Source: Hydractinia symbiolongicarpus (taxonomy: Eukaryota > Cnidaria > Hydrozoa > Anthoathecata > Hydractiniidae). Taken from it: 64,000 bases of DNA. The stretch's first letter is position 1. Every line of letters starts with the position of its first letter. The notes under the pieces are model-generated. The model ran no database searches and was not told where the DNA came from. It saw nothing but the letters and a program-made list of their open reading frames with translations. Position numbers and translations under genes: made by a program. This document shows, piece by piece, positions 22,951 to 51,918 of this stretch. The stretch spans positions 22,419,501 through 22,483,500 of the forward strand of contig NC_079881.1 in assembly GCF_029227915.1 (NCBI RefSeq), given 5' to 3'.

Positions 22951-23067
22951 CACCCTATTCGGTAAACTGTATATGATAGATATCCCGCTCCCCTGTAAAA
23001 AGGAGAACGATATACCCCGCGTTCCGTTGCTGCGCTGTTGCTCTAGCGATAGCGGAGAGCGATACTT
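22951..23067 (+). repeat. KDZ element left TIR
   Basis: This block is the reverse complement of 51802-51918 apart from a dozen or so substitutions. It starts CACCCTATTCGG and contains TATATGATAGATATCCCGCT, a short imperfect hairpin around CTGTAAAAAGGAGAACG, and GCGATAGCGGAGAGCGAT near the inner end. Small minus-strand frames crossing it are shadows. Confidence 0.92.
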
Positions 23068-26000
23068 GCCGTTTGCATGGAACGCTGGTTGTTGGTGCAT
23101 TACTTTTTGTGATGAATAGTGGTGCATTTATTTTTCTGGCTAGCTGCGTTGCTTCGCCAAACATCACTATGGCCAAACCAACAGTGTTGTGGCTATGTTG
23201 AATGGTTGTCAGCCAAATTTTAGACTACCTCTGTACTGTTTGTTTTAGCAGCTATAGCCCCCCACCCCTGTTCAATGTTTAGTCAGTTCAGTGTGGAAGG
23301 CAAGTGTTGCAGCTAGCTATCTAGCTCGTGAGCTCATCTCCATGTTTTGCTTGAATTATTATAGCAGTAAGATATTATGCCTTTTGCAAAGTCTAACAGG
23401 AAAGGGTCACGGATCGTTCGCAAAACTCTCAGAAACGGTTATACAAGAAGTGTTTTCAAGTCATTTCAGCCGGTGATAAGCAATTCTTCTGCAAGCATAA
23501 CTACCATCGAAGAAACAAATAATACAAGTGCTATTGAGGAACCTTTAGTGCAAACTGAACAATTTGATATTGAAGAACATGATAACGTACAGTTTTTGCT
23601 GAGTGGGGATATAGTTAAAAAAAAAAGATGTGGCGGTTATGAAAGAAAAAGAATTACATTCCTGGAGTTCTGTCACTTCTAACATTTGTGAAAATTATGC
23701 TGAAAAATTCAACCTTTTGCTTCTTCAAAAGTGTACGGTATGTGATTCGTCCTTTGAGGAAGGGCTTGTTTGGTGCGAAGACTGTGGTCCACTTGCGACA
23801 TATTGCCAGGGTTGTACAGACGTTTCCCATAAGAACATTGCATTTCATAATGCAATTACTTTAAAGGTGTGTATATATATATAAGCTATACAGAGCTTGC
23901 AAGTGAAGCAAGTTGCGCCATTTAACTAGTAGCTAGTCCTTACCAAACTTGCCATGCTTACCAGCTATGCGCTTGATGTATGTGTGTAATGTTAACCTCC
24001 AGATGATTAGATGTGACAGTTTTACATATAAATAGAATAAACATTGTAAAAAGTGCAGGCACTTTCAGGAGGGTTTGGCATTGTGAAAAAAATCTGCATT
24101 CACTCTAAAAAACTTATATATATATATTATAAATATTATTTTTATGTTTTGTTTTAAAGAATCAATTGCATTCATTTTTGCTACTTAAAGTTTTAACTTA
24201 AAGTTCGTGTTTATATGTATATATATATTTGATTTATATACATTATATACTTGTGATGTTTTATTTTTTCATAGCCAAACTTTGACATGATGACATGTAC
24301 ATTTCACAACACATTACACGATGCTCACTGTTATTCCTGTTCAAACAAATATTTTCGAGTAATAACAATTGTTTCTGAAAAAGGTAATATATAGATGTGA
24401 CTATGATGTGAGTGCTCTATTTGTACAGTTAGCAGTTGGATAAGCCCTTATATTTCATCTCCATCCGCGTGAAGTCTGGTTCTGCACATGTGAATCTGAA
24501 TTTTCGAAGTTGTTAAAGTATGATTTATGGGCATCAACACCTACTTAACCTTCTACTGCAATCTCAATAAAATTGCTGGACCTATTTGTTGCATTGCAAA
24601 TGGAGGGTAAAATTTCTTTCACTTCATTAATTGATGGAATGTCATGGAAAACTGGTATGCATAACCAAACTCTGGTAAGTTTAAGGTTTGAATTTATAGG
24701 TTAGGACTAACAACAAAACCTTTTTTAATAAGAAAGCCTATTTATTGTCAGAAGAGAGCCAAATTGTTTAATTTAGCAGCAATGGGCTTGTTATAATTGT
24801 ATTATATAGTTCATAATTTTTTTCCAGAAACGCGTATTAACACGTTTTATGCAAACAGACTCCATTGACCAATACCTTCAGTTCCAGAGACAGTTGAGGG
24901 ATCTATGGTTTTCAGACTTGATAGCAAAAATACCCAACCAATGTCCAGCATGTCCAATAGTATGGCAGCTTGTAATTTATGGATATTTTTGTATTTCTTT
25001 TTTATATTTTTGTTGTAATGCTTTTAGGATTCTGGGAGTGTTTTCTATTGCATGGATGCTACTTTTGGACTTGTTTTAAAAAGCTCTGCATCAAAATCAA
25101 AGAATACCTCAAACAATGACAAAAATCATTTTATTGAAGATGACGAAGTTGACACATTCATGTCTAGCTATGATGACAAAGCTGTGGAAAATAAGGTGAG
25201 ATACACTTCATCACCCTAATTTAATTCAAAACTTACTCGTTGTAATAAAGTCTGAAATCACCTTTGAAGCAGGGAACCGTGTCCGTTCAAAAAGAAAAAG
25301 TTCAAAGTTTAGTGTGACAGGTGTTTTTGGTGTATCTTGTCGGCATGAAATTCCAAAGCTCTTTCTTAAAATGTGACATATTGCATAAACTTTCTATTAA
25401 TGTAAACTATGCACAATAATATTTCTTGGACAAAGTAATTTTCAGTCTGCGATGTTGTTTATTATAGAATATTCAATGATATTTTCTTTTCATATGATTA
25501 GAATTGGTTATGCGGTATTAATGATGAATAAAATCCTAGCTGAAGCGTTGGGTAAAGATATTGACGTCCATATTATGTATGATATTGCCAGTCTGTTGAA
25601 GAAACATTTAACTGTAGGTTATTCGTTTTCTATATGCATTCTGGGTTAGCTTGAAACATATATGTTGAACAGTATATATTGATCTATATTTTAGAAAAGA
25701 GGAACGTTAAGTAAATACCCCAAATTCAAATTAGGGATACCAGTATTTCACGCACATGTGAACATTAGTTCTTGTCAGGTTTGTTTCTTTTTTATTATTG
25801 TTGTGTTTGTTGTTGTTGATATTGTTGTTGTTGTTCTTAATATTTTGGCAGAATTTTTGTAATAGTAACCGTTTTCCACATTTTCATTGTTAGGTACAAA
25901 ATTCAATCCGTAGAATGGAAGGTTTTGGTTTAATGGATGGGGAACTGATGGAAAGACTCTGGTCCTATTGGAGATCGTTTTCAAAAATCACGAAAGAAAT

Positions 26001-26594
26001 GACTTCAGCTTACCGTGTTGACTTTTTGAGTCATGCTTTAAATCATTTTACAATGACAAAGTTAGAAATATTATGTACGCATGTATCTATATATTGTTTA
26101 ATTTTAATATTTTATATTCAAAACCTGTGAAACTTTAAGTAAGTGAGCAAGAAGTTTTAGCATTTAATTGATTGTATTTTTGAATTACTTGTGTTCATTA
26201 GGGAAAACACTTGTGGGCTGGTATAAAAAAGCCAATGCTGTCTATCAGACTAGTTCTGCAGAAATCCAAATTTTGTGTTCAAACCTAGGTGACATGTTTT
26301 CTTAAAATCGTGTTTCGTGAGAATAGAGTTGTTAATGGGATACATTTGGTTTTATTTGTTGGCAAATCTGAAAGAATGTGAGAGTTTCTAGATAATATCA
26401 CAGGCGAGGTTATACACTCATGAAAGTTGGAGGAAGAGTCTAAAATTAAATAGAAAAGTGTTGTAGAGCAAGGTACTTATTTATTACAATAACGCTTATT
26501 TGTTGTTAAAGGAAAAACTTGATTAACTGATTTGTTATACAGTGTAAAAGTGTTATCTTTAGAGGTTGGTTGGGAATTCAAATCTTATATATTA

Positions 26595-26700
26595 ATTCCC
26601 TTGCGTGAGTAAAACTGTGAGTCCACGACACGGAAATCACGGGTCACTTTCTTATGACGTGGCTGTACGCTAAAATTTAACTAAAAAGATTAGGGATGTA
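26595..26700 (+). repeat. Dispersed repeat shared with 61525-61650
   Basis: The blocks TTGCGTGAGT, AAATCACGGGT, TTTCTTAT and ACGCTAAAATTTA occur in the same order and spacing near 61525-61650. This is a short interspersed family of unknown type. Confidence 0.5.
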
Positions 26701-27289
26701 CTTCATAGAAATCGCACATAAGGTGTAAATATATAACCCGCTGCTAATAACGATATAACTATATATACCCTTATGCTAAAAAACTCTATGTTAGCATATA
26801 TATATAGGTATCGCTACATATAAAACAGTATTAGATATTCACAAAGCATACGGACTGTTAAATGAAGTTCCTAGCATAAAACGGAAATTGTGTTTACGAA
26901 AAAGATGGCTGTTCTTTTTGAGTATTCTCTACTCTTTCATTCAAAATAAATCTTTAAAAAAACATTTGAAGAAGAGCATGGTTTTTATAAATTAATCATA
27001 GCAAGGTTCTGTAAGGTTTTTTCATGTTTTATTTTCAGCTTTGATTATATTATTGTTGCCAGACATGTTTTATAGCTAGCATCATAAAAAGCCAACCACC
27101 ACCAACAACTAGCTAGCTAGCTAGGAATATATATATATATGTAACCATGTTCTTTATACCTAGCTAAGTCTCCAGTTTATATTTAAGTGACTAGCTATTA
27201 GCTGCTGTAGCTAGCTAATGCTAGCTTTAAACTAAAGATTCCCAGTATATATATTCCCACACAAAACACATCAAACGTTATTAACCCTG

Positions 27290-28870
27290 AAATTTTTTAA
27301 ACATTTTCCTGTTTTTTTTTGGTCTGCGAAGTTCTTTTCCTCCAAATATTCTGAAAATAAAGTTCAGAAATTACTTATTTTTAAAATGTAAATTTAATTT
27401 GTTTCAAATTGTGGTTTTGACATTTTCATGTAAGAATTTGTGGGCAAAAACCTTAATCAGCATGCTAAAAGAACTGACTTTTCTTAATTTAGAATTACTA
27501 AACACAACCATTTTCTTACATTTAGTGTAAACTTTTGTGCGTATGGCTTATATTTAATACACCAAAAGAGCTACTTTGTTGATTTCAATTTTATACTCTT
27601 TGTAAGCTATTTTTTTCTTCTTTTTGACATTTTGAATTAACTTATTGTTGTAGAAGGCATATAATATACATGCATATAAAAAAATGGAATTTTGCAAATT
27701 TCTGTTTTACCACTCAATTTTTACATTTTATGAGTTATTTGGAACAGAATGGTATGAAATAGACCAAAATACCTGATCTTAGTTGTTTTTAATTTACAGG
27801 CTGTGTCTGTGAAACTTTAAGGGGAACATTTGGTGGAAGACAATGGCATGACATATACTGATAGAACTGATTTTTGTTGTGTTAGATGTTATATCTGAAC
27901 CTTTTTGACATTTTATGTTAATTTTGCGAGGAAGGACCATATATATATACACAGAAGAAGAATTCAATTTTACACCTTGCAAGCTTTGTTTTTCTATATT
28001 TTGTATAAATTCTTACTGGGGAGGACTCCGTGCAATATATCGAAATGACTGATCCTTCTCGATTTAAATTTGATTTGTTCTAAATCGTATATAGTTTTGG
28101 AAATTTTGTGTAAGATTTAATGGGTAAGGGCTAGATGCAATATGTCAAAAAAACGTTTTTTGTTGAATCAGAAGCACTCCCTACAACCATTCTTTTTTTT
28201 ACAGTTTGTGAAGCTTTTGTGAGGAAAGAGTGTATGCAATATTATCGAAATAACTGATTTTTGTTGCAAACTGTTTTTCTTTGGCATTTTGGATTAAAAT
28301 ATTGTTTTAGAGGGCATATGCAGTAGATATATGTACCGAAATAATTAAATTTTGCAAACTTTGATTTTGTCGTTACCTCTCATTTTTTACATTTTGATTA
28401 AACTTTTGTGGGAGACCGTCGGTATGCGAAGGACCAAAATAAGAGATTTTAGTATTATTTAGAATTTGTATTTTGTGTTGCAAAATTGGTGCAAAAATTG
28501 ACATAAAATGAACTTATATACAGATTGATTGCTGTTGTTTAACATGACTCATTATGACTTATATATATATATATTTTATGAAAACATTTGTTTACTTTAT
28601 TGATGGTAAAGCAGCATGCAAATTGCTAAAAGGACTTTATTAATTTTTCGATTTAAACACCGTTATTTTGTTGGCATTTTGTCTAAAGTTTGGCGAGGAA
28701 GGACCGTATGTAATATTTCAAATAATGTTTTATTGCATTATAACTTATCCTTGCAATCCCTTTTTAACACCTTATATAAAAATTTCTACTTAGGCAAAAT
28801 TTATTGTTTATTTTTCACATTTTGTGTCAACCTTTGACAGGGTTTGCAATAAACTAACTGATTTTAACAT
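27290..28870. repeat. Intronic diverged tandem array, about 130-bp period
   Basis: Repeated blocks of the form ACATTTTG.GT.AA.TTTTGTG, then GGAGGAC..TATGCAATAT, ATCGAAATAACTGATTTT and a T-rich stretch recur about ten times with strong divergence (27420, 27530, 27620, 27720, 27890, 28090, 28200, 28270, 28390, 28680, 28800). The array lies wholly inside the transposase intron. Confidence 0.65.
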
Positions 28871-30270
28871 ATACAATGAGAGAGATTTGTGTTTGACATT
28901 GATCAGCTTTTTTGTATATATGTGGCGTTTTGAGTGATTTAAATTTTATGGGTGAGATGTATGTTGAAATGCTTTTAAAAACTTTTTTCCGAATAATTTT
29001 TGCATTTGTCAGATGGTCAGAGCAGTAATTTTAGTAGATTTAGATTTTAAATGTCACATATATACTGCAGTTGTTGGACACCTTTAATTTTTTTGGTCAT
29101 TTATATAATAATGCAGATGTAAGATGCGCACTGCTGTATTGTTTGTTTTTTGATGGACATATATCTGCTACATAAATTAAATGGAATACAGTGGATTCTT
29201 CCACGGGAAACAGCTAGTATTATACTAAAATTAAAGAGCTGAATAACGAAAAGACATTACTCCTGTTAAGTAGTAGTGTTTCTGATACTGCGAGACATAG
29301 GATAAAACTTAGCAGGTGTGTGAACATTTAGTTTATGCTACAACACACTAACCATCCGGTAGTTTTGTGTTTCGTTCTTAGATGGCTTTTTGTTATTGTT
29401 ATTTAGGTTGGAATCTGATCTTTCGAGTTTCGAAAAAAAGCACGGTGTAAACGATCGTTGAAGTATAACCTTAAATCAGTACACGTATTATCATCGCAAA
29501 TTCGTTCAGAATGCTGTAAAAACCGCTTTGGATACTTTACATACTCGTGCAACTGAAAGGTTAATGTTACTGACTTTAAAGAAACGATATGCAGGTAAAC
29601 TATAAATTTATATCAGCCCGATGAAATATGTGTACAATCACTTTGTTTTTTTTATTCTTTGTTGATTTATTTTACTTAACTTTGATAGATGGTTCTTCGA
29701 TATGTAATCGTTTATCAGTGCAAATCAATAAAATCTGCAATGACCTAAAGAATTTAGTTGAGTCGTTAAATCAGACGAACAGAGAATGTGGTGTGTACGA
29801 AGATGTGTTGTATAAAGATGCATTGGACGTCAATTCCAGGATATATTTAAACACTACTACGGTTGATCTGGTAATTCTTTAAAAATTATGCATGATAAAA
29901 AAACTGACGAGTTCTTTAATTTGTTACGGACACTTTATTTTAGGTTAATAACACTTCACATAACATTCCTGCATCAGTAAAAAGTACGTGCGTACAATTT
30001 TATCTGCACAAGTGTCGTGCTACCGAGGAGCTTCAAATTGTTCGTACGGAAATGCAGCACGTATTAAACTACTATAGAGAAATGGAATCCTCATTGGCTA
30101 CTGCTATTTATAATAACGATTCTCCAAAAAACATTTTTGTTATAGAAGAACTAAATTATGTACGAAATACAGTAGAAAATATGCAGAAACTATTTATGGA
30201 TGTCAAAAGCAACAATCTCGAAGATGATTTTGATGTGACTGTTTATTGCGATGGACAATCTTCAGAATGA

Positions 30271-31573: not shown

Positions 31574-31715
31574 AGAGATAGAGAAATGTTCCTTCTGGCA
31601 CAGTCGACGTCGACTAACAGGAAATTCCCAATAATGTTAGTAACCAACACAAAATAATGTTAAATAATATTAAATGCCAATCACCAACACAAAATAATAT
31701 TAAATGTAAGATACA

Positions 31716-31723
31716 TGACGTCA
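31716..31723. promoter_or_regulatory. Perfect CRE palindrome in the left TIR, distal
   Basis: TGACGTCA is the consensus site for CREB/ATF bZIP factors. It is conserved in the right TIR at 47889-47896. Function is inferred only. Confidence 0.5.
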
Positions 31724-31803
31724 TCTACCAATAACCAACACAAACTAATATTAAATGATAGATATATTAAATACTAACACATAATCATATAAAATAATAT
31801 AAA

Positions 31804-31811
31804 TGACGTCA
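31804..31811 (+). promoter_or_regulatory. Proximal CRE with TATA-like promoter
   Basis: TGACGTCA is followed by ATGCGCAATAG and, 18-35 bp further on, TATATACACTATTATAAAG. The first Polinton ATG is at 31926. The matching site in the right TIR (47801-47808) faces the minus-strand gene there. This looks like a promoter carried in each TIR. Confidence 0.5.
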
Positions 31812-31925
31812 TGCGCAATAGTATATACACTATTATAAAGAATATAAGTAAAGGGAAATTCCCATTCAAAATCATGACCGTGCCAAAAATTTTTGAAATC
31901 AAAAAATTATATATAAATAAAAGAG

Positions 31926-34900
31926 ATGGATTTGAATTCTAAAACCGTAAAACAATTACATGCCATTGCAAAAACCAGTGGGATTAAGGGTTATTCAAAA
32001 TTACGTAAAGCAGATCTTATTGCTTTATTAAAACCCACAGATGATGTACCAACTCGACCCTCCAGGAGAGTCGAGCGACGAAACCCAATTAGATCAGTGA
32101 ATATTCTACCAACACCAGAGGCCATGGACATCTTCGAGCTCCAAGAGATGTTGAGGACTCATCCAGTGGTAAAAAGTAAACTGCGAGAGTGGTCTGATTG
32201 GCTAGTGGATTATGTTCCAGAGTATATAAAGAAAGGTGTCAATAGCGCATATAACACGTTCAAAAACAATGTGATTAAACTCAACAACAGGGTCATGGGT
32301 GCAACGCTTCATGACGAGGTTGAGCAAGGGAAGATCATAATTTAGAGCAACCTAACCAAGATTTCACACCACAAGAGCATAAACATGCGATTCATAAGAC
32401 TTTTAGAAGTTATCGTATAGCTGGCATAGATAGAACAGATATTAATGGGTTCGATCAAATGTAAAAACACTTATTGAAAACTAAGTGGAAGAAATGAGGT
32501 CTGCAAAAATCCAGTGCTCCCTATGGATCCTATGGAGGAAACCCATCGATGGTACTAACGAGTTTATCGAGGTGGACAAGGTATTCCACAGCAATATGAC
32601 ATCTATATTCCAAGGTAGCATAGTGGATGAATCGATGGACACAATGTTTGCTCAAATCAGAACGCATGTGGAGAATCCCGCGCTACCCAAGAGCGGTTTT
32701 AGTATCGGTCGTATTCAACACCTCGATGTAGACTTTCAGAAACAGAAGTTAACACGGGGCTCATCATATATTGAAACACCCAAGTGGTCATAATTAATCC
32801 GGATAACAACGATCAAGAATGCTTTAAATGGTCAATTATCGCCGCCATACATCACGAAGAGATAGGCACAAACCATCAAAGAATAAGCAAGCTTCGACCA
32901 TATCAGGAGCGGTATAATTGGGATGGTATAGAATTTCCAACATCCATCAAAGATATCACAAAATTTGAGCGGAACAATCCAGACATTGCCGTGAACGTCT
33001 TGTATGCAACAGGTAAAAAATTTAATATCTTACGGCGATCGGCATTTAACGAAAGTGATACTCAGGTTAATCTGCTACTGCTTACCGATGAGAAGAGGAA
33101 CTATTACGTATCCATCAAAAATCTATCAAAACTACTAGGACGTGAGATATCGAAGAATCATGGGAAAATGCATTTCTGTCTGAATGGCCTGCAGGGTTTC
33201 CAAACGATAGAATCCCGCGATAACCATTATACCTACTGCAAAGACAACGCAGTGGTAAAGATCACGATGCCCAGCGAGAAGGAAAAATGGTTATATTACC
33301 AGGACGGACGATGCCCAGCGAGAAGGAAAAATGGTTATATTACCAGGACGGACATTGCCAATTCAAAAAACCATTTGTAATATATGCGGAATTTGAAAGC
33401 CTACTGATCCCGGTGAAAAATGCTCGGGATACCAAAACATTGAATAAACATGTACCATGCGGGTGGGCCACATACTCCACTTTCGCATATGGAGAAGTGC
33501 CGGATCCACTAACAGTCTTCAGGGGTAAAGAATGTGTAACACGCTTTGTCGATCATCTAGAGGATGAGGTAAAGCGACTATACAGCATCTACCCTCAAAA
33601 GGACATGTTGCTATTAACGGAAATACTAAAAAAAGATCATGACTCCGCCACGAGTTGTCACATCAGCATGAAACCCTTTGACGATGACCCGAAGAACCGT
33701 AAGGTGAAGGACCACTGTCACTCTCCTGGGTTACACAGGGGTGCCGCGCACAATACCTGTAACTTAAAATATAAAATACCCAAACCATGTACCAGTGATT
33801 TTTCACAACCTATCAGGGTACGATGCTAACTTATTTATCCGTGAGCTAGGTGAAAAATATGACACTCAGGATATAGGATGCATCGCCTAGAATACCGAGA
33901 AGTACATATCGTTTAATGTTAAAATCAAGGTACCCATTGCAGGCATGGGTCAAGGTCATGGTGAAAAGTACAAGAAGATCGAGATCAGACTCATAGACAC
34001 CTGTTGCTCTATGGCATCCTTGAAATATGAAAAATTAGCTAATAATCTCAATGATGAGCAGTGCAAATATCTTCGTTGGTTTTTCGCTGAGGATGACACC
34101 TTTAAGTTTATGCGAGGGAAGGGAGTGTATCCTTATGAGTATATGGATGGCTGGCGACGATTCGAGGAAACTGAGCTACCTCCAAAGGAGGCTTTCCATA
34201 GCAAGTTAAACATGAAGGGGATTAATAATGAAGAATACGAGCACGCTCAAAAAGTGTGGAATGCTATCAATCCCAAGGGGGATGAAACTACCATGGGGGA
34301 CTATCATGATGCGTACTTGGTTACTGACGTTTTACTACTAACTGATATATTCCAAAACTTTCATGGAGTGTGCCATGCTAACTATGGCCTTGATCCCGCC
34401 CATTTTTATTCCGCACCTGGCTTAGCTTGGAAAGCAGCACTCAAATACACGGTGTAAATTTGGGACTACTGATGGATCCTGACATGCTTCTCATGTTTGA
34501 GCGCGGAATACGGGGTGGTATTACGCAGTCTGTACACCGGTACGCGAGGGCGAACAACAAATATATGGGGGATCAATATGACCCGGAGGTTGAGTCAAGT
34601 TACCTTCAGTATCTGGATGCCAACAATCTATATGGATGGGCGATGCAACATCCTCTACCCACCCATGGGTTCAAATGGGTATCAAATGTAGAGATAATAG
34701 ATGAAAAGAAGATCGAAAAGCTGGTATCTGATAAAAAACATGTGTACCTCCTGGATGTAGATATTGATTACCCGAAGGAGCTCCATGAAAAACACAACGA
34801 ATTACCCTTCCTGCCGGAGCGCAAGTTTGAACATAGTGTGGAGAAGTTGATCCCTAATCTAGAACATAAGCGGAAATACGTAGTGTACATCGGAGCTTTA

Positions 34901-35832: not shown

Positions 35833-35834
35833 AA

Positions 35835-39686: not shown

Positions 39687-39736
39687 TTTTCAATCATATT
39701 TTAAAAATATGATTGAAGTGGTCAAGCCACAAAAAT

Positions 39737-40746: not shown

Positions 40747-40781
40747 CTTTTATTAGATGTCGAAAAACATATATCTATGCC

Positions 40782-41173
40782 CATTTGTAAGCCGCAAGGC
40801 CGAGCAAAGCCAACGAGCCCACTATAAAGCGAATTCACCGTCCTTTTTGGCGTTTTGTAGATGTGTAAAAATCTGAGAGCTTTGGGGCCTTCTCTATGGT
40901 TGCAATGAAATGCTCCCGCCTTCCCTCGTCGAGTTCTTTAAGAGATTGTCCTGCCTCTCTTTATTCCTCCCGCCGTTGGTTGTACCAGTCAATTTTTGCT
41001 TGTCTTTGCCTTACCCAGGCAGCTTGGGCTGCTTGTAATTTTTCAAGAGCCTGGTCATGACGCTTCCTTTCCGCTTCCCCGTGGTTACTTAATTTTGTGA
41101 ATAGATAGTTACTACCATTAAAAGCCAGAGCATTGATCAATGCTGCTTCAGCCATAATCTCGAGACTTGCCAT
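40782..41173 (-). pseudogene. Polinton coiled-coil protein with TM ends, broken
   Basis: The first 70 residues (41173-40961) start with a hydrophobic segment (AALINALAFNGSNYLF) and continue as a charged helix (ERKRHDQALEKLQAAQAAW). After an in-frame TAA (near 40960) coding text continues (LKELDEGRR, KLSDFY), is shifted once more, and ends in a hydrophobic segment (IVGSLALLGLAAYKWA) before TAG 40780-40782. The layout matches a conserved accessory protein of cnidarian-type Polintons. Function unknown. Confidence 0.6.
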
Positions 41174-41219
41174 GTTTATTTTGTAGGCCTTTGGTCTACA
41201 AAAACAATTTTCAATGCTC

Positions 41220-42444
41220 TTAATATTCTACTGAATGAAAACGACCCCCTAGGATATTCAATTGTGCATCCATCAGCAAGTATACGTAGCATCTAATATC
41301 GCTTGTACCGTCGGCCTTCTTATTCATATGGAGGGTTATGCCGTCACTGAGTCTTTGTAGGGGGAGCCAACTCCCGTGGATTGTATCATCCGGACTTGCT
41401 CTGAAGTCGACAAACAGAGCATATCTTTCAGTGAAAAACTGGACTATCATCACTATAGAATCATGAGATCCCAGCAACGCAGCCACCTGTTCCATGTGAT
41501 ATTTCAGTAACATCGCATGGGAATAGAGCTGATTGGGCTCTCCTTCGATAGTGACACATATGCCTTGACCACTGCAGGGTCTTGGAATAATAGAAGGACT
41601 CCCTTTAAGCTCTTGGCAGGGGTATCTAATTATAGGTTGTATGATGTGTCAGCCTTTTTAAGGATCACCACTTTACTTCTGAGAATCCTCTCATATGGTA
41701 GGGCCAATCTCGAGTATCTCCACAACATGGCACTTGCGAGACCTTCATTGGTCACTTTGTCAAACTCTAAGCAGATATTGCTGATCTTGTAGGAGAAATC
41801 CGCGGCCTTTGCCGCTGTGCTTCAAGATGCTGGAGTCCCGGCATCCTTGATAACCTGATTATATGGTGCAAAATGCTGGATCAACTGTAGTCTATCATGG
41901 AGGCCATGTTAGTAGAAGGGCAAGTCCCGTGTCAACGAGAACATCTTGCCTATCGGAATACAAAAAGTGTTGCCGTAGACCTTGGCTATGGCCTTGTCTT
42001 CGTTATTCCCAACGTGATCACTGGCTTTTACCTGGAGGGCTCTGATAGTACCATCATTAGGATTTATCCACTCCAGAATCAAAGTGTTGTTGCGCTCAAA
42101 TTTTGGCAGCCACAAATCCCTATACACTCTGTGGATATTAAAGTCTTGTATGTTTTGTATTTCGTTAGCATTCAGCGTAATCCGTAAGCTCTGTACCAAT
42201 GCTTTGCCGATATTGCTGACGATGTTCGTTTGCCATTAGTTCCATTCAGCTCCAGGTCGAACATCAAATTGATTGAGCCGGGGAAAAATAAGCAGCTCTC
42301 CCCCATGTTTGTTATGTCCACATATAGATCCTCATTCTGATTAATTGTAGATGGCACGTGCGATACCTTCACTCTTTGTTTTTTCCCTTTCATGCTGAGC
42401 ATAGTCTTGACTTCCTTGTATGGATTTAAGATAGTTCCGTACAT
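41220..42444 (-). pseudogene. Probable Polinton major capsid protein, broken
   Basis: Frames 42444-42172, 42199-41909, about 41890-41517 and 41513-41220 join into a product of around 400 residues. Features include INQNEDLYVDI, FFPGSINLMFDLEL, YRDLWLPK, NTFCIPIG, CLEFDKVTNEGLA and VQFFTERYALFVDFRA, with alternating beta-type hydrophobicity as expected for a jelly-roll virion protein. Its length is shorter than many double jelly-roll capsids, so a minor capsid role remains possible. At least three frameshifts or stops are present. It is divergent from the intact gene at 42475, with a 30-bp gap that must hold both promoters. Confidence 0.6.
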
Positions 42445-42474
42445 TTATTAATAGGTTGTAGAGGGTTGAAATAA

Positions 42475-43773
42475 ATGGCTGATAATCTGGGATATGAAGG
42501 AGACTTTGAAGGTATTCAGATGGATGATCTTGCGCCTGAGAATGTCCCTAGTGAACTACTTGTGCCGCTGAAGTTCCGTGGGCTCGAAGACGTGCAGGGA
42601 TCCAGCACGGCGGGAGATATGACGACGGAGCAGCAGGGAGATACACTTGATAGAATAACGAAATCTATACTAGAGGAAGAGGTAAGTGCTTTCTACGCGC
42701 ATCTAAATAATCAAGACCTGGGACCTCTGGATAAAACCTGGATAGATATCAATATCACCACGGGTAACTTTACACGTGAAGGGGAACAGCTGTTTTTCAA
42801 AGGTATAAGGGTTACAAAGGAGAATGGGACAGGGTTCTTAACATTAAGTACATTACACAAATATGGCCTTACGGCTCAAGATATTCGCGATATGGGCTTC
42901 ACCAAGTATGTCTCTACTTCCAATAATGGTGGTCGGGCACAGGCTCAGAACCTTGCGTTGGAGATTGACGTTCTTGTTAAGAAGGGTGAGGAGACTTCGG
43001 GTAAAGAGGATGATGAGACGATTGAAATACAAACAATTGATAGCATTCAAAATTTTGCTCGTGACATAGAGGGTTATGTAGATACTTCGTTCGGGGGCAT
43101 CGACGATGAGATCAAGACCCCTGATATGAGAAAGTTAAAGCTCGAAATTGAAAACCTGCGGAAGACTATTAAGAAGGTGAAGGATATACTTGTACGATAT
43201 GATAGGGAAATAAATGTTAAAGAGGGTAAGTTAAAAGAACTTAAAAAGCAGAAGCCTGGGGTGGGAAGGCTTCAGAATATTAATGATCTTGAGAAGGAAT
43301 TGAAGAAATTGAAGGAAGATAAGAAGGATAAACTGGGTAGGCATGGTCTTCCCTCCAAGGTTTTTAAGCAACTGAGATCCATTAAATCCAAGCTGATGAA
43401 AATCGTTTGGGACGATATATCCCTACGAGAAAAGCTCAGCATTCTATCCAAAGAGCAAGGGCTAACTATAGCAAGCATCGTGAGTTCCATTAACTTATTA
43501 ATATCCACCTTGGTCTTAACACTCACAGGAGGAAGTGGTGCCAAAGGTTTCGTTCAAAAGCAGCTGGAGAGACTAGGACAGTTCCTCAAATATTTGGCAG
43601 GCAAAGCGGGAGCTGTATTACCTGGCATTATTGGTAGTATTGTATCGTTATTCTTCCGGGTAGCTGCTAAAGTCGTGGAACTCGTAGCGAGGCATCTGTA
43701 CATGGCCATCGCGGGAGCTGTGGGTATAGTTGTGGCTTACGTGGGGAACAGAAGGAGTGGGAAAAATAGATGA
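42475..43773 (+). CDS. 432-aa coiled-coil protein with hydrophobic C-terminus, intact
   Basis: The only long undamaged ORF in the Polinton. Residues 1-60 are acidic. The middle (about 95-165) has a globular segment (FFKGIRVTKENGTGFLTLSTLH). Residues 215-330 are a long Lys/Glu-rich coiled coil. Residues 335-430 hold three hydrophobic stretches (IASIVSSINLLISTLVLTL, LPGIIGSIVSLFFRVAAKVV, LYMAIAGAVGIVVAYV) with a GGSG linker and a basic end. It resembles the PX-type protein of cnidarian Polintons and could be a virion or membrane-penetration component. Start ATG 42475 is preceded by an A/T-rich gap of 30 bp shared with the divergent capsid-like gene. Naming is tentative. Confidence 0.8.
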   Translation: MADNLGYEGDFEGIQMDDLAPENVPSELLVPLKFRGLEDVQGSSTAGDMTTEQQGDTLDRITKSILEEEVSAFYAHLNNQDLGPLDKTWIDINITTGNFTREGEQLFFKGIRVTKENGTGFLTLSTLHKYGLTAQDIRDMGFTKYVSTSNNGGRAQAQNLALEIDVLVKKGEETSGKEDDETIEIQTIDSIQNFARDIEGYVDTSFGGIDDEIKTPDMRKLKLEIENLRKTIKKVKDILVRYDREINVKEGKLKELKKQKPGVGRLQNINDLEKELKKLKEDKKDKLGRHGLPSKVFKQLRSIKSKLMKIVWDDISLREKLSILSKEQGLTIASIVSSINLLISTLVLTLTGGSGAKGFVQKQLERLGQFLKYLAGKAGAVLPGIIGSIVSLFFRVAAKVVELVARHLYMAIAGAVGIVVAYVGNRRSGKNR

Positions 43774-44829
43774 TAAGTAGCCTTAGTTTCCTCACGATCT
43801 AGTGCTTCCGATGGAGCTGGTGGGGGATGTGGTACCTTGGAGGGTTGATTATGCTTCCTTGGTATGGCAACATCATGCGGAGCGTTAATATTGGGATTGT
43901 GACCAATCTTAAAATGGTCCTGACTAATAAGAATTTTGTTGTTGAAATTGGCGACATTTCCTATCCTCAGGTTTAAATCTGAGAGATCATGTAAACCCCA
44001 TGGGCAACACTATAGTCGACCTTGCTTCGTGCATATCTGAGTACGTTCTCGAATTCACTAATCTCTCTAAACCTGTATTTGTAGGTCTAATTACCAGCTG
44101 CTCAAAGGTAGTCAAGTAGAGTCGTTGAGCATCAATAGATGAGCTGTCATTTCCAATAATTCCTGATTGCGCATTAGCTTGGCTCTCCATAATCTAATAC
44201 GCGTAGAATCTTACGCTTTGGGATAACTTTTCAATCCCCATGCGGGTAAGACGCTGTGATTTCTCGATTATTCATCTACTCCATGACCCTTCATTAAAGT
44301 ACGAAAGCCCACTGCCAGGGAAGTCCTCGTGAGTAGCCTGCCATGAACTGAAAATACTCTCATTTTTCCATTCTTGCTCATTTGGAGATACTCCAAATTC
44401 ACATGCTAATTGCTGGAGCTTTTGATTATTGAAGGGGTTATTCAAAGCGGGAAGAGCCTGGTAAAAGAATCTCTAGCTCCTCTAATTTTTTTCGAATTTG
44501 GAAATAGACATGGAATCGACAGCGCGAGCAAGGGGCAAGGGGGAGTTTAGATGTTGTATGCTGATACCACAGGCCGATGTTGCGCAAAATGCCGCAAAAT
44601 TTAACTGCGTTGACCAGAGGCCAAAAGGGTGTATTTTCCATTTACCAACCAGTGGGTTAGCATTGAAAACATATTCCACAAAGATATTGGGAAGCCTTAC
44701 TTTAAATGACGAACCTTTCGCGTAAGCAACGAGAGATTGCACAATAAGATCAGAGCTCTTTAACTGCTCCAGGTACCTGCCATGATTCGACATATATTTT
44801 GCACTTGGGTTGTACGAATATATGTTCAT
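43738..44829 (-). pseudogene. Conserved Polinton structural-type protein, broken
   Basis: From ATG 44829: FVEYVFNANPLVGKWKIHPFGLWSTQLNFA..C..SACGIS (44829-44482), then coding text through about 44200, then 44190-43987 (SQANAQSGIIGN..), and after a one-base shift GLHDLSDLNLRIGNVANFNNKIL with a Pro-rich tail. The last frame ends at TAA 43738, overlapping the 3' end of the 432-aa gene by 36 bp. Together about 350 residues. Similar ORFs are a usual part of cnidarian-type Polintons; the role is not known to me, but virion structure is likely. Confidence 0.55.
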
Positions 44830-44844
44830 TCTTTCTTAAAGAAA

Positions 44845-45370
44845 GATGCGACAGCTTTATGTAACAAATATAGATAAGCCTACGATTTTTGAAGATTACC
44901 TAAGCAGGACACTAGGATCGCTTTAAAATCCATCAGTATCAGGCTTACGTGGCTGAACCTCTACAGTAACAACGATTTTACTATCCGTAAGATAGGACCC
45001 GATCAGACGGTTACTTGAATTGAAATAATGAACGGTCTGTACAAGATCGAGGATATCGCGGCCATCGTCAATACCCAGGCAGGGGATAAGATTAAGCTGT
45101 TTTTTTTATGTATACCAGCGACTGAGGCTTGTTTGCTCTCAGTTAGATGAGGATGATTGCCTACTTAACGGAAAAAAATCGAAAACCCTAGCGGTATTGC
45201 CAACAAAAGAAAACAAGTGGGGAAATATGCTTACCTGGACTTGTGATACACCGATATATCTTACTTTAAAAGATTCAACAGACAGACTGGAGTCTATGCT
45301 GACGGACGAGCATCATGAGGATAAGAAAGTCTCGTTTTATGGAATTACCATGCACTTGCTCATAGAATAA
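44845..45370 (+). pseudogene. Decayed Polinton ORF, possibly minor capsid-like
   Basis: Coding-like text begins at ATG 44845 (MRQLYVTNIDKPTIFEDYL), passes a stop, continues in other frames (NGLYKIEDIAAIVNTQAG; VLPTKENKWGNMLTW) and ends with a readable stretch to TAA 45370 (DEHHEDKKVSFYGITMHLLIE). Four or more lesions are present. The ending IMNGLYKIEDIA resembles minor structural proteins of other Polintons, but this is weak. It directly abuts the next ATG at 45371. Confidence 0.4.
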
Positions 45371-46015
45371 ATGAATAATGATGATATTATGAAGCTATAT
45401 CCTTCATTACAACCGAGTGCTCCAGATCATGAGAATGACGATGGGCATGTGTATCGATTGAAGAAAATAGAGGAAATAGAACTTTTTCTACGAAATGAAG
45501 TAAAGCAGCAAGAAAAACTCAGTAAGAAATTTGGGATGCATGGGTTACTCGCAATTAGCATGATCACCTCGAGCGTTGGGATCGCTTCTATGCTTAGTGG
45601 CATCGGAGTCCTATTAGCGGTAGCGATGGCTGGGATCGGAATCGGCGTTGGATTGGGACAGATTGCATTAAAGCAAGGTGGGAAGAAATTGAACTATAAG
45701 CGTAAAAAACACGACTCGACGAATAAGACTCCTTGCAGAGACTTAGTTAAATTCAATAGTTGATCTTATATCAAGGGCTATTGAGAATGGAGTGATAAGT
45801 GATTATGATTTTCACTAATAAACCAAGAGAAGCAAAAATATCTCATATTGAAAGAGCAGATTCGTCAACGCACGAAAAAAATAGTGGAGACGATCAATGA
45901 ACAAGAGAGACAGTCACTTGTCGACAAAGGTCGCGATGAGGCAAGAGTAGAAATCTTAAAAAACTTGCAGTCTGCAAGGCACCACTTAAATATTTATAAT
46001 GTATTGCTAACAATA
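45371..46015 (+). pseudogene. Coiled-coil protein with Gly/Ala-rich TM segment, frameshifted
   Basis: The 130-aa ORF 45371-45763 has an acidic N-terminus, a helix (IEEIELFLRNEVKQQEKLSKK), a long hydrophobic Gly-rich segment (LLAISMITSSVGIASMLSGI.. to GIGIGVGLGQIAL) and a basic tail. After a shift near 45755 coding text continues (ISRAIENGVISDYDF) and is shifted again into 45848-46015 with a charged helix (LKEQIRQRTKKIVETINEQE). Likely one membrane-associated virion protein. No enzymatic motif. Confidence 0.55.
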
Positions 46016-46062
46016 CGGTATACAATACCGATAACTTCACCAGTATCTTTATCGATCATAAA

Positions 46063-46293
46063 TCACCGTCGTATATGACAGTTCCTTTTTTGATTTGCCT
46101 CGAGACCCTTTATATACTCGTCCAATAATTTCATAGCTGTGATTTCTAGACATGGCTTGCAATGAGGCCCAATGGTTTGTGTTCCAGTGTTCTTATACTT
46201 TAATTTATGAATAGCAGCGAGAAGATCAGCTCTTTTGAGGATTGAATAACCCTTAATACCCAACGACTTTGCCTCTCTTTTCAGATCGTTCAT
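46063..46293 (-). CDS. Small SAP/HeH-like DNA-binding protein
   Basis: The start MNDLKREAKSLGIKGYSILKRADLLAAI is close to the N-terminus of the polymerase (KQLHAIAKTSGIKGYSKLRKADLIALL). It is the SAP/HeH helix-extended-helix type that binds DNA. I start at ATG 46293 rather than 46323 because the domain begins there. After the domain come a Cys pair (HCKPC) and a short helix. 77 aa. Both polB and this gene carry the motif, suggesting a shared element-specific tag. Confidence 0.6.
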   Translation of the reverse strand: MNDLKREAKSLGIKGYSILKRADLLAAIHKLKYKNTGTQTIGPHCKPCLEITAMKLLDEYIKGLEANQKRNCHIRR

Positions 46294-46326
46294 GTTTATT
46301 TTGTATACAACATTAATATACAAAAA

Positions 46327-47069
46327 TTATAATACAACGAATGGTTCCTCGTCATAATCAAGGTGTCGTGTCCTAGATTGTTGAACTGGTTTATACTTAC
46401 ACTCTTCTAGCATAACCTGTAAATAGTTTTTATTCCCTTGCCTATAGATACTTGATAGCTTTAAAATGCAGATGCAGTCGCAGGGCCGTTTAAGTGGTAA
46501 TAGTTGATCATGAAAATCAGTACATAGGTGAATATTTATCATAGCACATCCGTATTTTATTCTCAACAGAGAATGCTTCACCCCGATCAGACCTCTGATC
46601 ATGACGGGCGAGTATAATGCGTGTAAGTCGTACTGAAAGAGAACTACTTTGTTCATCACTAACATACTGCCTGGCAGTAAGCGGGATTCGATCCGCGGTC
46701 CCCATAACTGTGTAGTGTAGTGGGTTCGTCTGCGGCTCCCAGTTATGGGGACCGCAAGCCATGTCAATATACTTTGGTATTTCTGAATCCATTCTGGATG
46801 ATTGTGTAAGTTAAATGACATCGTAAGTGGGAACTCTCATCATATCGAGATGCTCCATTGCTATATAGGCTCCCTGGTGTTCTGAATAGTAGGGCGGTAA
46901 TTCTATTATCATTTTTGTAACCTATAACGATTCGCCCATCTTTACCGTTATTAGATTGTATTAGATCGCTAAATACAATGTTTTCAATCTTTATATCGAG
47001 GATGTTGAATGCAGTTAGATTATTATAAAAGTCGACTGTTTCAATATTATTTTCATAAAATTTAAACAT
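46327..47069 (-). pseudogene. Unassigned Polinton gene, broken
   Basis: Frames 47069-46764 (MFKFYENNIETVDFYNNL..), 46821-46327 (MSFNLHNHPEWIQKYQ.. to YDEEPFVVL) and a middle overlap appear to be one damaged gene. The last frame ends in an acidic tail. A 16-bp inverted repeat at 46695-46755 falls in the middle and may mark the damage. No domain is recognised. Confidence 0.4.
46695..46755. repeat. 16-bp perfect inverted repeat, 29-bp spacer
   Basis: GCGGTCCCCATAACTG (46695-46710) and its complement at 46740-46755. Part of the spacer looks like a partial copy of the neighbouring text, so a local inverted duplication is likely. The B-box-like TTCGATCC next to it is not accompanied by a cloverleaf. 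Confidence 0.85.
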
Positions 47070-47183
47070 CCTGTTTATTTATGAAAGTTGGACCTAACTA
47101 GGGTTTTTTACAAGGACATATTCCACCGTTGTAGGTGAGCCACATGATATAGTGTTGCCAAGATAGCATTTTTCCACATATAA

Positions 47184-47258
47184 TTACCTCCGTTCACACT
47201 TGTGGCATCTGTCATATTTATCAACATTAAACCCACATTCATCACATTGTTCATTCAT
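47184..47258 (-). CDS. 24-aa zinc-ribbon micro-ORF
   Basis: From ATG 47258 to TAA 47184: two CxxC pairs (CDEC and CHKC) 10 residues apart in a 24-residue peptide. Coding-like text with further Cys continues in another frame to about 47100 (GGICPCKKP), so this may be the first half of a longer zinc-finger protein broken by a frameshift. It sits 4 bp downstream of the next gene's stop on the minus strand. Confidence 0.45.
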   Translation of the reverse strand: MNEQCDECGFNVDKYDRCHKCERR

Positions 47259-47261
47259 CGT

Positions 47262-47725
47262 TTATTTGCTCCACAAAAACTCAAAGTCTGCCTTTTCATC
47301 CTCTGAAAAACACGAATCAACGACTCCTTTTGGATGCCATGCAACAGGAAGTATCTCTTCCTTAATTCTGGCCTTCTCCACTTTTCGCTGACGATAAGCA
47401 TCGAGCATTCGAGGATCAGTGCTACTACACATATCCTGGGTCACGAACCAGTCTGAAACAAACTCGAGTAGATGAGGTTCATCTCGAACCGCCATATTAC
47501 ACATGTCTCGCGTCTTGAACCTATCAGGAACAAGTCTGAGCTTCCCTGGATACTCCTCAACTGCCCTTGTGCATATGTCCCAAGTCTTGAACCTGTCGGG
47601 GGTATATTTGAATAGCCAGGGGTTCTTTTGGACATTTCCCTTGTTTTGAATTGGTCCGGTACATACCTTACCACTGGGGGATCCTCTTCAACCAATTTTT
47701 TCCATCTTTCTTGTCTCCAATTCAT
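47262..47725 (-). pseudogene. DUF4116-like repeat protein, frameshifted
   Basis: From ATG 47725: MNWRQERWKKLVEEDP, then repeats of about 22 residues of the type VPDQFKTREM, in shifted frames FKTWDICTRAV and FKTRDMCNMAVRDEPHLLEFVSDWFVTQDMC, followed by AYRQRKVEKARIKEEILPVAWHPKG and an acidic end to 47262. Such Val-Pro-Asp/Phe-Lys-Thr repeats occur in proteins of large DNA viruses and invertebrate elements. Two frameshifts. It is the first gene next to the right TIR and faces outward from it. Confidence 0.6.
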
Positions 47726-47750
47726 TATATATATTTTTTTTCAATCAGCA

Positions 47751-48038
47751 AAATTTCTGGCACGGTCATGATAATTTTTACTTATATTTGCTATTGCGCA
47801 TGACGTCATTTATATTATTTTATAGGATTATGTGTTAGTATTTAATATATCTATCATTTAATATTAGTTTGTGTTGGTTATTGGTAGATGACGTCATGTA
47901 TCTTACATTTAATATTATTTTGTGTTGGTGATTGGCATTTAATATTATTTCATATTATTTTGTGTTGGTTACTAACAATATTGAGATTTTCCCGTTAGTC
48001 GACGTCGACTGTGCCAGAAGGAACATTTCTATATCTCT
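47751..48038 (-). repeat. Polinton right TIR
   Basis: The reverse complement of the left TIR, including GTCGACGTCGAC and both TGACGTCA sites. It ends TATATCTCT at 48038. TTTGG follows at 48039-48043, matching the left flank. Confidence 0.93.
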
Positions 48039-48252: not shown

Positions 48253-50346
48253 ATGGCTGAAAATAAGAGAAAACTGGTAAAAAAGACCCCAGAACAAGTC
48301 ACTGTCGTCGAAGAACTTTATGAAGCTGGAATGAAGAGCTATAAAAGTGACAATACGTTGGCGCAATCTTTGTTAGAGCAAGCGGTATTGAAAACAGGCC
48401 TAAGTGAATCAAAAATCAAGGTTTGTTTTGTCGAAACTTTTTGGTACATTTAAAAAACAGAATTACGGCAATACCATTATTATGATTACAAAGTTGACCT
48501 TTTTTTTCTCTTTGGTGTAGGATTGGATTAATAGCAAAAGAAGACCTCCACAAGTAAAGTCGACAAAACTACCCGAAAGAAAACCTTCTGGCTTTGACAT
48601 GTTTCGTAAACAATATATGAAAGGTTTAGCTTGTTGTCAATACTTATTTTATATCGTTGTTTCATCTCATTAACATATTATTGCCAGCCATTATTATAGT
48701 ACGCCTCCAACTTTAAAAAGGAGAGAAAATGAGATTAGTAAGTCTATAAACTGAAAATATTATAAGTACATAATACTCGCTAGTTTTTTGTTGGTTAGAT
48801 AATCCAGTCAACTAAATGGCGGATATGAATAAAGCCTGGACGGCGTTACCGGAAGAAGATAAGAGAACCTATCACGCCCAAGCTTCTACAGTTGAGAAGC
48901 CAAATTTCTCAAGTTTATCTCAACAGAGTTAATCGTCGGCTGTTCGCAGACTGCGGGAAAAAATTGAAAAAATTGTTAGTACAAAAACGTTCTTTTTTAA
49001 GGAGCTGATGCGTCAACTGTCTACATGGAACGTGCCAAAAATGTTATTGAATTAAAATATTCCGGAACTTGAAGTATTTTACCACCTAAGAATTCGTAAT
49101 TTTTACTATATTTTCAACAATATGAGATTAGGGATAACAGAATATTGAATCGTAAAACTTTACTATGTAGTGTAAAGAGATGGAATCCATCGGAATGGAT
49201 ATCGTTATTATGGATATGGACACAGAAAGAACGGGAAATAAAGTCACTGTATACGGGAGTCAAAAAGGAATTTATTTTGTGGACTCACACAATGATTTGC
49301 AATGGAAGTTGGGCAGTCACATAATGAGTAAGCGCAGCCTTCTGTTTACAATTCACCAGTGTGATTTTTTAAACGCGTTACAATCCATGTTTCGATTAGC
49401 TTCATTATGTTCATTCTTCCAATTTATTATACTAGGTGTACCGGTTGAAGCAACCATAGAAACAACGTCTTTAAGAAAAGAAGTAACCTTGGAACTGAAT
49501 CAAAAAATATGTGCGCCGCTTTGCTTCACTTATTTAAAAAGAGGTTTGTAATCTGCTTCTAGTGTTCAATTACATTAGTTTTCTCTTCCTATTATAGATT
49601 TGGCATCACGTGGGAAGCGTACAACAGTTCCCTACAAACAAGTAGATAATGGTCACATAACAGTAAATGGGTTACCGGCCGGTTTTATGTTTAAAAAGCC
49701 TAGCAATTGTTCCCAAGTCGAGCTAAAAATATTAAAAGAGAATATGCAACACATATCTTTCACTGGTAAAACATCTGTTATCATGGTTAAGTTTTTTCTC
49801 GCTATTTTTACGCTGGTCTTTTTTTATTATTTCTGTGATATATACTGCTGATTAGAAAATAATTAAAATGCACCATACTTCTTGTATAGTTCCAATTACA
49901 ACAAACCATACAACTAATTCAAGTTGCATTGCGAGTCATCCGAAGCGGTCAATTTAAACCAACAGGAGCAGGAGCAAGAGCGAATTGAACAACCGCATAG
50001 CTCAAAAGATAATGTAGGATCTGAAAAAACAGTTGTGCGTGAATTTAAGGAGAGAAAGCGAAAATCTAAAGAGGTCATTCAACGCGAAGGGCTTGATATA
50101 AATACCCAGCCACTTAATTTAGTGGACAATGTTCCAAACAAATCTGGAATGGTTGTGACTCTTCGAGAAGTGTTGGGTAAGTCTGCCCAAAACGAAGGTT
50201 TCATTGACTTTATAATGACTCACAGAAAGGTCAATGATCGTAGTGAATATCAGGTTAAATGGATTGGCTATCGTTCTCCAACAAGGGAAGTGGCAGAAAA
50301 TTTACTAAAGCCTGATTTAGAAGAATATTTTCTTAGTAACGTTTAG
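48253..50346 (+). CDS. KDZ-element second gene: homeodomain-like, HMG-like and chromodomain-like
   Basis: Exons visible: 48253-48420; 48521-48623; an unclear one or two around 48690-48980; about 49003-49070; about 49162-49329; 49440-49547; about 49599-49795; and about 49924-50346. Exon 1-2 join (AAG|GATTGG) makes a homeodomain-like helix, SESKIKDWINSKRRPP. GFDMFRKQYMK and, further on, MNKAWTALPEEDKRTYHAQA look like the two ends of an HMG box. The middle (VTVYGSQKGIYFV; TVPYKQVDNGHITVNGLPAGFMFKKP) is unrecognised. The last exon has a basic stretch (KERKRKSKE) and a chromodomain-like end, HRKVNDRSEYQVKWIGY. Some exons (48690-49070) contain stops, so the gene may be partly decayed. Same strand as the transposase. 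A role in targeting insertion or chromatin is a reasonable guess. Confidence 0.6.
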
Positions 50347-50877
50347 TTGTCAAAAAAGGAGAGAAAAAGCTATTATTGTTGTTCATTACTAAGAAACTTT
50401 CGCGAATTTTTCGATCAGTATTCCGACTGCAGAAAATTCGTTTGAGACCCTGCGTAATTTTTCCACCCCTTGTCCTTTTGATTTCCCCGCCCTAAGAAAA
50501 AATCCCTGACTAAGGTCAAGCTTGAACAAGTACCTTAACAGGATACTTAACGCTGTATAAATTATTGCTAGATTTAATTTTTTTGATTCGTTGAGAAAAT
50601 ATGGTTTTGCGATATTTATTTTTGCGAGTTTGATATCGAACGACAATTGCGAATGTAGCTTTTTTAAGTATCATAACTAATCCATACATACAAAAAATAA
50701 TGACTCCGAGAATGCCTCCATAGGATAAATATACTGTTTCTAATATCCTTGTCTTAACCGCCTTAATGTTAAAGTTAAAATAACTCTGGTGCTAAATGCG
50801 TTTATCTGGAAACATTTTGATCACATCTACACAACTGTTCCTAACACATGCTGCACGGCAAGCAAAACTGAGTCCTA

Positions 50878-51366
50878 TCAGAATAGGAACAAATCCTGTC
50901 CGTGAAGAATTACATTGTCTGCAACGATATGGTTGTGTAGCACACCCTTACTATACAAGAAGCTAATTCCGCTTGCAACGCCTGTCAGAACTCGCTTAAA
51001 AACTGAAGTTGAAGAAATGTCTGGAAAACCCAATTTCCAATGGCGATCAAGAGTATAACCAGCAACGTAATGAAGCACGGAATAATACGATTGATCGAAA
51101 TGCACGACTCCAATGCTGCTCACTAGGTTTTCCTGCCGACCAATAAACTTCAAAATCCGGTGCTCGTGACTTACATGGGCAACATTTTTAATGTTATTTT
51201 GACGACAATCTTTTGAAAACGTTTTAAATGTCACAATATCTCCGTCATCGAACATCGGCCTTTTAGTAGATGCAAAAACACCTTCACAAAAATCTGTTAT
51301 TTTCAACGTAGAATTGAACGCTGCAAAACAGACTGCTTCAAAAATCACTTCCACAACTCTCAGCAT
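50878..51366 (-). pseudogene. Kinase-like cargo ORF without a catalytic Asp
   Basis: 162 codons from ATG 51366. Visible protein-kinase features, in order: EGVFAS (glycine-loop-like), IVTFKTF (VAIK-like Lys), HEHRIL (alpha-C Glu), YSVLHYVAG (hinge), KGVLHNHIVADNVIL (catalytic-loop position). The family has H-R/N-D there and this has HNH, so the catalytic base is His. Two stops follow at once and no DFG or C-lobe is visible. It is either a truncated remnant or the first exon of a pseudokinase. It lies inside the KDZ element near its right TIR. Confidence 0.6.
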
Positions 51367-51506
51367 AGCTATAGCTAGCTAGCTATAGCTACTACCTATT
51401 GATACCTGCGCTTTAGCAAAGGTGCCTTCTACAAATATTTTGGGCCCTGATAACAGGATATTTTCCATTAGGAACCATTTTTTATTGTTCTATAACTTGA
51501 CTGAAA

Positions 51507-51719
51507 ATGCCAGAGCATTATAATCAACCCCGAAATGTTTTAGAATGCATCAAGATGGCAGCACAGTCTCAACATCACGAGCTAGTAGGAAGAGCATACT
51601 GTCGTAAACCAGCGAATCATTTCAGTTTTTTTGGGGAGGATCCGTTAAGAGGTGAAGACCTTAACGGGCAAAATCTTGTTAATGGGGCCCAAGATAAATT
51701 TTTGAAGGCCCCATTTTGA
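51507..51719 (+). CDS. Doubtful 70-aa ORF next to the KDZ right TIR
   Basis: An ATG-started frame (MPEHYNQPRNVLECI..) with ordinary composition and no recognisable domain lies between the kinase-like ORF and the TIR. It could be a terminal exon or chance. Confidence 0.2.
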   Translation: MPEHYNQPRNVLECIKMAAQSQHHELVGRAYCRKPANHFSFFGEDPLRGEDLNGQNLVNGAQDKFLKAPF

Positions 51720-51801
51720 TGATTAAAAATAGTAAAAATATCAACGTTGAATTCTTTTTCTCGCATCTTTTATTTCATAGGCAAATAGCAAAACCTTCAA
51801 T

Positions 51802-51918
51802 AAGCATCGCTCTCCGCTATCGCTGGAGCAACAGCGCAACAACGGAGTGCGCCGTTTATCGTTCTCCGTTTTACAGCGGAGCGGGATATCTATCATATAC
51901 AGTTTTCCGAATAGGGTG
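51802..51918 (-). repeat. KDZ element right TIR
   Basis: The inverted copy of 22951-23067. It ends CCGAATAGGGTG at 51918 and is followed by TTTATTT (51919-51925), which also precedes the left TIR. Confidence 0.92.

Follow-up and report, generated by a model that had tools for sequence, protein, structure and literature searches.

Does an interval of almost 29 kb in the genome of the colonial hydroid Hydractinia symbiolongicarpus, bounded by inverted repeats and holding a transposase gene and two further genes, represent a single KDZ transposon with cargo? The interval spans positions 22951-51918 of the 64,000-nucleotide stretch analyzed here (contig NC_079881.1, positions 22,419,501 to 22,483,500 of the forward strand; hereafter “the window”). 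An earlier interpretation made from the letters of the window alone (“the sequence-only reading”) had proposed one cargo-carrying element with intact terminal inverted repeats (TIRs) and a target duplication. Our comparison of the locus with related sequences indicates that it is a cut-and-paste DNA transposon of the KDZ superfamily, a reading to which we assign a probability of roughly 0.88; this figure covers the anatomy and the family of the element only, and not the role of its accessory genes.

The ends of the element are as first described. The two TIRs, at 22951-23067 on the plus strand and 51802-51918 on the minus strand, are each 117 nt long and 90.6% identical, with 28734 nt between them (BLAST E ~7e-41), and BLAST finds no third copy within the window. 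The termini read CACCC...GGGTG. Immediately outside them, TTTATTT occurs on both sides (22944-22950 and 51919-51925); the identity extends over exactly 7 bp, and not the 8 bp that had been allowed for. A 7-bp match occurs at a frequency of 1.7e-4 for random pairs of positions in the AT-rich window, and the flank match taken alone is modest evidence in such DNA. Among the 25 longest of 55 inverted repeat pairs, no convincing pair brackets the transposase gene alone; these internal pairs are short, 70-89% complementary, and for the most part AT-rich.

The transposase gene (23377-30270, plus strand), whose exons were compared with the relatives P0002 and P0003, is spliced and lies inside the TIRs, as the sequence-only reading had it. 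With stops read as X, its product matches PF18758 (E = 9.5e-36), and the catalytic domain is preceded by a CxC cysteine cluster (CxC2, 1.7e-8; CxC1, 2.1e-6), all three passing the Pfam cut-offs. Three acidic residues (D, D, and E of the motifs DANFGLV, YDIA, and DGELMERLW), the presumed catalytic residues of the KDZ transposase, are invariant in four relatives and are present in the window copy as well. Its closest protein relative is LOC130628863 of H. symbiolongicarpus itself, and relatives from Clytia are ~40-47% identical; the relatives P0003, P0004, and P0010, which have long uninterrupted frames on contigs shorter than 3 kb, are taken as assembled transcripts. No relative turned up in the viral contigs scanned with the transposase, a four-row alignment, and two TIR pieces, and the TIR had no match in the phage collection searched. 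Several in-frame stops and at least one frameshift interrupt the window gene. Several early stops are TAA, and recoding of this codon was considered; the idea was abandoned in view of TGA and TAG stops in the same gene and the lack of these stops in sister copies. In the aligned parts of the sister exons, we count no in-frame stops in three copies (C14b, C15, and C2) and one in the fourth (C14a), with stops at the alignment edges read as intron sequence; checks in these copies covered part of the splice sites and small indels, and C2 is a weaker match over one exon.

Further copies were sought in the window's own genome (480.9 Mb), where all repeat counts are lower bounds. The right TIR end has at least 30 matches, 18 of which form nine pairs while the other 12 are single ends. 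The pairs comprise the window copy and its mirror, single copies on contigs C2, C15, and C8, two on C14 (C14a and C14b), a 2.6-kb copy on C7 that is diverged, and that copy's own mirror, which was left out of the copies read. The whole window locus, flanks included, is present twice on contig C7, at 22.44 and 32.25 Mb, in inverted orientation and ~10 Mb apart, and a second TIR pair is mirrored likewise. Because the flanks are 97-100% identical and the target duplication is the same, the window copy and its mirror are one insertion, seen twice through either a genuine inverted duplication or the merging of haplotypes in the assembly. Exact 7-bp duplications accompany six of the seven independent two-ended copies, the window copy included (TTTATTT, GAGAAAG, CTACTTT, AAAATCT, GTACAGG, and ACCGATT). 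The expectation that the TIR would be found elsewhere in pairs around a KDZ transposase, with target duplications, was thus borne out.

Four of the sister copies are full length: C2 (15,384 bp), C14a (13,740 bp), C14b (13,896 bp), and C15 (18,107 bp). They are 98.9-100% identical in common pieces longer than 150 bp, and the presence of near-identical copies at unrelated sites suggests recent movement of the element. All four hold the same genes in one order and orientation, namely the KDZ transposase, which is read inward from the left end, accessory gene 1 behind it on the same strand (homeodomain/HMG-like and GTF2I parts, then the chromodomain), and a convergent, kinase-like accessory gene 2, in agreement with the claim of at least two genes besides the transposase. 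The TIRs of the near-intact element measure ~113-117 bp. At element positions ~1262-5345, the C15 copy has a nested stretch of ~4.1 kb, with its two ends matching in inverted orientation, that is not in the other copies.

Compared with these sisters, the window copy is an old dead relic, with stops, frameshifts, insertions, and lost pieces. Its pieces are 90-97% identical to C14a, relative to which ~2.3 kb is missing from the region of the kinase gene, along with two ~0.6-kb stretches; all three of its genes are broken, and the description of the element as intact holds for its ends but not for its contents. An extra ~2.6 kb relative to C14a inside the transposase gene (26590-29217), AT-rich and with diverged internal repeats, is probably a nested insertion. 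A much larger element of ~16.5 kb occupies 31574-48038, with inverted repeats at 31574-31827 and 47785-48038 and a 5-bp TTTGG match at its flanks. Among the ten of its frames that were scanned, a poxvirus-A32-type ATPase scores barely over the cut-off and a capsid match falls below it, while polymerase and integrase gave no Pfam confirmation; these features are fitting for a Polinton that was inserted later and stands outside the KDZ gene set. Its frames are themselves interrupted, with overlapping frames in the polymerase region and a 44-bp tandem duplication at 33264-33351. In the history that we envisage, the window copy would have gained the 2.6-kb stretch and the Polinton, and lost parts of its genes, after its insertion. 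Without the Polinton-like element the window copy measures ~12.5 kb, which agrees with the size first estimated, but the full element is nearer 13.8 kb, given near-intact sisters of 13.7-13.9 kb.

What, then, are the two other genes? Accessory gene 1 (48253-50346, plus strand) has seven exons with GT/AG borders, broken in the window. Its exons 5-6 (49436-49765, plus strand) encode a single GTF2I-like repeat (PF02946, 3e-7), for which all five PDB matches are TFII-I family proteins (human TFII-I, 2d9b, E = 4.8e-5), and exon 7 (49890-50346, plus strand) encodes at its end an HP1-like chromodomain (PF00385). The chromodomain scores 1.6e-4 in the window exon, below the Pfam cut-off, and 2e-6 in the relative P0001, above it; the 446-aa spliced product of a sister copy passes the cut-off for both domains (GTF2I, 3e-7; Chromo, 9.7e-6). 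Queried as P0001, the chromodomain matches CBX3 (3tzd, 3.3e-5), and aromatic residues stand at the cage positions when the two are aligned, positions that presumably form the cage for methylated histone H3. The beginning of the protein offers weak, suggestive signs of a homeodomain-like and an HMG-like part: for the one, 15 of 15 PDB matches are homeodomains (best E = 0.069), and for the other, 21 of 21 are HMG-box proteins (best E = 0.068), none of them significant and both parts below the cut-off in Pfam. A single-sequence fold of the GTF2I exon had a mean pLDDT of 53 and was discarded as evidence. Genome-wide, PF02946 has at least eight matches, all eight in copies or fragments of this element family (four are on C1, two of them read at the locus and two 93-98% identical to accessory gene 1), and it has none in 14 control genomes. 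When the two parts of accessory gene 1 were combined into a single protein query, no match was returned, to P0001 or to any other protein; P0001 (159 aa) is under the length limit of that query.

Accessory gene 2 remains in the window as a kinase-fold remnant (50778-51323, minus strand; Pkinase, 1.1e-10) that maps to positions 9624-10170 of C14a; a sister copy scores 1.5e-19. At E <=0.001 it matches 329 PDB sequences, the best among the 60 listed being RAD53 (1.1e-8). The sister copies have HNH in place of HRD and GFS in place of DFG, and a diverged copy at C2:6.63 Mb, 42% identical, has HNN and GFS. The absence of both catalytic aspartates even at 42% identity points to a maintained pseudokinase, and the kinase-type gene of the sequence-only reading is accordingly a predicted pseudokinase. 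In C15 and C2 the last kinase exon is an open frame of 361 aa; C14a and C14b have it in broken form. Intact forms of both accessory genes therefore exist outside the window. The first 22 residues of the window kinase frame, as first read, were rejected as an artefact of the missing 2.3 kb.

From these genes a working model can be drawn. By comparison with its family, the transposase would cut at the TIRs and join the element to target ends with a 7-bp stagger. The chromodomain protein might tether the transposase, or the element as such, to marked chromatin, or shield it from silencing, and the pseudokinase might serve as a scaffold or regulator. That the extra genes play a part linked to chromatin, exerted on the element itself, is a tentative proposal, with the odds somewhat against it, and it draws on analogy with chromatin-reader domains reported in retrotransposons (PMC12477816) and with the TET/JBP genes reported in fungal KDZ elements (PMC12730594). 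The extra proteins could instead act on host genes or chromatin, as mimics of TFII-I or HP1, rather than on the movement of the element. We regard this as doubtful: the resemblances to human TFII-I and to CBX3, both of them host proteins, are what such mimicry would predict, but accessory gene 1 travels with the transposase, every PF02946 match found in the genome belongs to this element family (a lower bound), and no host factor that might be mimicked was seen.

Whether the extra genes belong to the element at all can be judged from accessory gene 1, which has at least 83 exon matches in the genome, grouped into 24 clusters. A KDZ exon lies upstream on the same strand in 14 of the 24, where 0.2% per site is expected by chance, at a distance of 1.5-8.4 kb (24 kb in the Polinton-bearing window copy and its mirror). 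The association persists among clusters at 42-46% identity, eight of nine of which have such an exon; one of the diverged KDZ-linked clusters was read downstream, and accessory gene 2 (42% identity) is there too. Of the 82 KDZ exon matches found genome-wide, most have no accessory gene 1 match alongside, and the pairing is therefore a property of one lineage and not of all KDZ elements here. Given the constant gene content of the four full-length copies and the upstream KDZ exon in 14 of 24 clusters, eight of them at 42-46% identity, we read the two extra genes as old, fixed constituents of a single KDZ lineage. On this view, the chromatin-type and kinase-type genes of the sequence-only reading are not random cargo.

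Several observations weigh against this reading. Grouping into the 24 clusters was done manually, and the window copy and its mirror are both counted in them though they are one insertion. Ten of the 24 have no upstream KDZ exon; six of these, three of them on C1, two on C6, and one at C14:1.92 Mb, lie next to one of the family's TIR matches, and another, at C1:24.65 Mb, shares 97% identity with C14b across 3.6 kb. These look like truncated or diverged copies, and the other three (C9:5.38 Mb, C14:18.25 Mb, and C14:15.50 Mb) are unread. On C6, two 20-kb blocks at 13.20 and 13.28 Mb, 99.97% identical to each other, each hold both accessory genes (37-65% identity) and a right TIR, and the 28 kb read there contain no KDZ gene save for a 22-residue match. 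The two-ended copy on C8 (1.4 kb) has no target duplication and none of the genes, and of these genes the diverged C7 copy (2.6 kb) carries just the N-terminal portion of a KDZ gene. The PF02946 search, for its part, missed C2 and C15, which carry the exon, and this is why its restriction to one family is a lower bound.

An alternative is that the extra genes are incidental passengers, whether genes captured from the host or a further nested element, and play no part in the life of the transposon: both are broken in the window copy, the smallest copies lack them, and the kinase exon is broken in C14a and C14b. We nevertheless consider it very unlikely, since gene order and orientation are constant in the four full-length copies, of the nine clusters at 42-46% identity, eight place accessory gene 1 next to KDZ, with the kinase-fold gene also present in the one read downstream, the pseudokinase signature is kept at 42% identity, and no notable inverted repeat pair surrounds the extra genes. 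It is scarcely credible that the TIRs are those of some other transposon that received a KDZ insertion; TIRs by themselves do not name a superfamily, but independent copies enclose the same KDZ gene, the scanned frames (8 queries and 20 frames, a subset of the window's frames) contain no other transposase domain, no second repeat pair surrounds the KDZ gene, and 7-bp duplications with CA..TG ends are reported for Kyakuja (PMC12730594).

Within the KDZ superfamily, we leave the element unassigned among Kyakuja, Dileera, and Zisupton. Kyakuja duplications are reported as 7 bp, and two Laccaria families have CA..TG ends and no TIRs (PMC12730594); our element agrees in its ends and duplications and disagrees in its ~117-bp TIRs. 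For Dileera and Zisupton, 8-bp duplications are reported (PMC12730594), in contrast to the 7 bp seen here. KDZ/Zisupton elements have been described in fish, lancelet, sea star, mussels, and nematodes (PMC9297572), and a metazoan copy is in this respect less of a novelty than had been supposed. Those elements share with ours a multi-exon KDZ transposase, TIRs, and an animal host, but GTF2I, chromodomain, and kinase-fold genes are undescribed in the available portions of that work (PMC9297572); a platyfish Zisupton isoform with an F-box is on record (PMC12062965). Fungal KDZ elements with TET/JBP genes also have a chromatin-type accessory gene, which is in their case a dioxygenase (PMC12730594). 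KDZ1, KDZ2, and KDZ3 of Cryptococcus resemble our element in size (~9-11 kb), in TIRs of 139-241 bp, and in the combination of KDZ and CxC1, and their mobility is proven; they are fungal, with 4-8-bp duplications, and the accessible text of their description mentions no such extra genes (PMC12810828). The giant KDZ elements described in algae, which reach 30.3 kb in Ectocarpus and 31.7 kb in Chlamydomonas, are likened to ours by large size alone (PMC12477816). The GTF2I-like repeat is shared with the vertebrate TFII-I family (GTF2I, GTF2IRD1, and GTF2IRD2), although in the Hydractinia protein one repeat was found, with a chromodomain, on a KDZ transposon. The hAT-derived tail of GTF2IRD2, a source of transposon misannotation (PMC10641963), is unrelated to the Hydractinia gene. 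In the parts of the open-licence literature available to us, we found no report of GTF2I, chromodomain, or kinase-fold genes in a KDZ element; as far as these searches show, the kind of element is known and its three-gene set is new and unusual, which is where the interest of this animal KDZ element lies.

A few neighboring features complete the picture. Just outside the element, at 52686-53535 on the minus strand, two overlapping frames, one with a DDE_1 match (1.8e-6), are a pogo-like transposase, and at 20371-21004 short tandem repeats form a long array that stays open in several frames. Elsewhere in Hydractinia, HyS0067.3 is described in a table of the sex locus as a likely KDZ transposase (PMC9926710).

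KDZ elements are little-studied transposons in animals, and the best-documented cases of accessory genes in them come from fungi. The lineage described here, in a cnidarian that serves as a laboratory model, keeps genes of chromatin-reader and pseudokinase type across a large sequence distance. In its furthest form, which we think unlikely as a whole, the account would be of an old KDZ lineage with its own chromatin module, steering insertion or blocking silencing under the governance of a pseudokinase, and the GTF2I repeat of vertebrate TFII-I would then be akin to, or descended from, a mobile-element protein. The finding itself places a GTF2I repeat in a non-vertebrate mobile element, and it makes two ideas testable in this animal: that a DNA transposon may steer itself by way of histone marks, and that a pseudokinase may act as a regulator of transposition.

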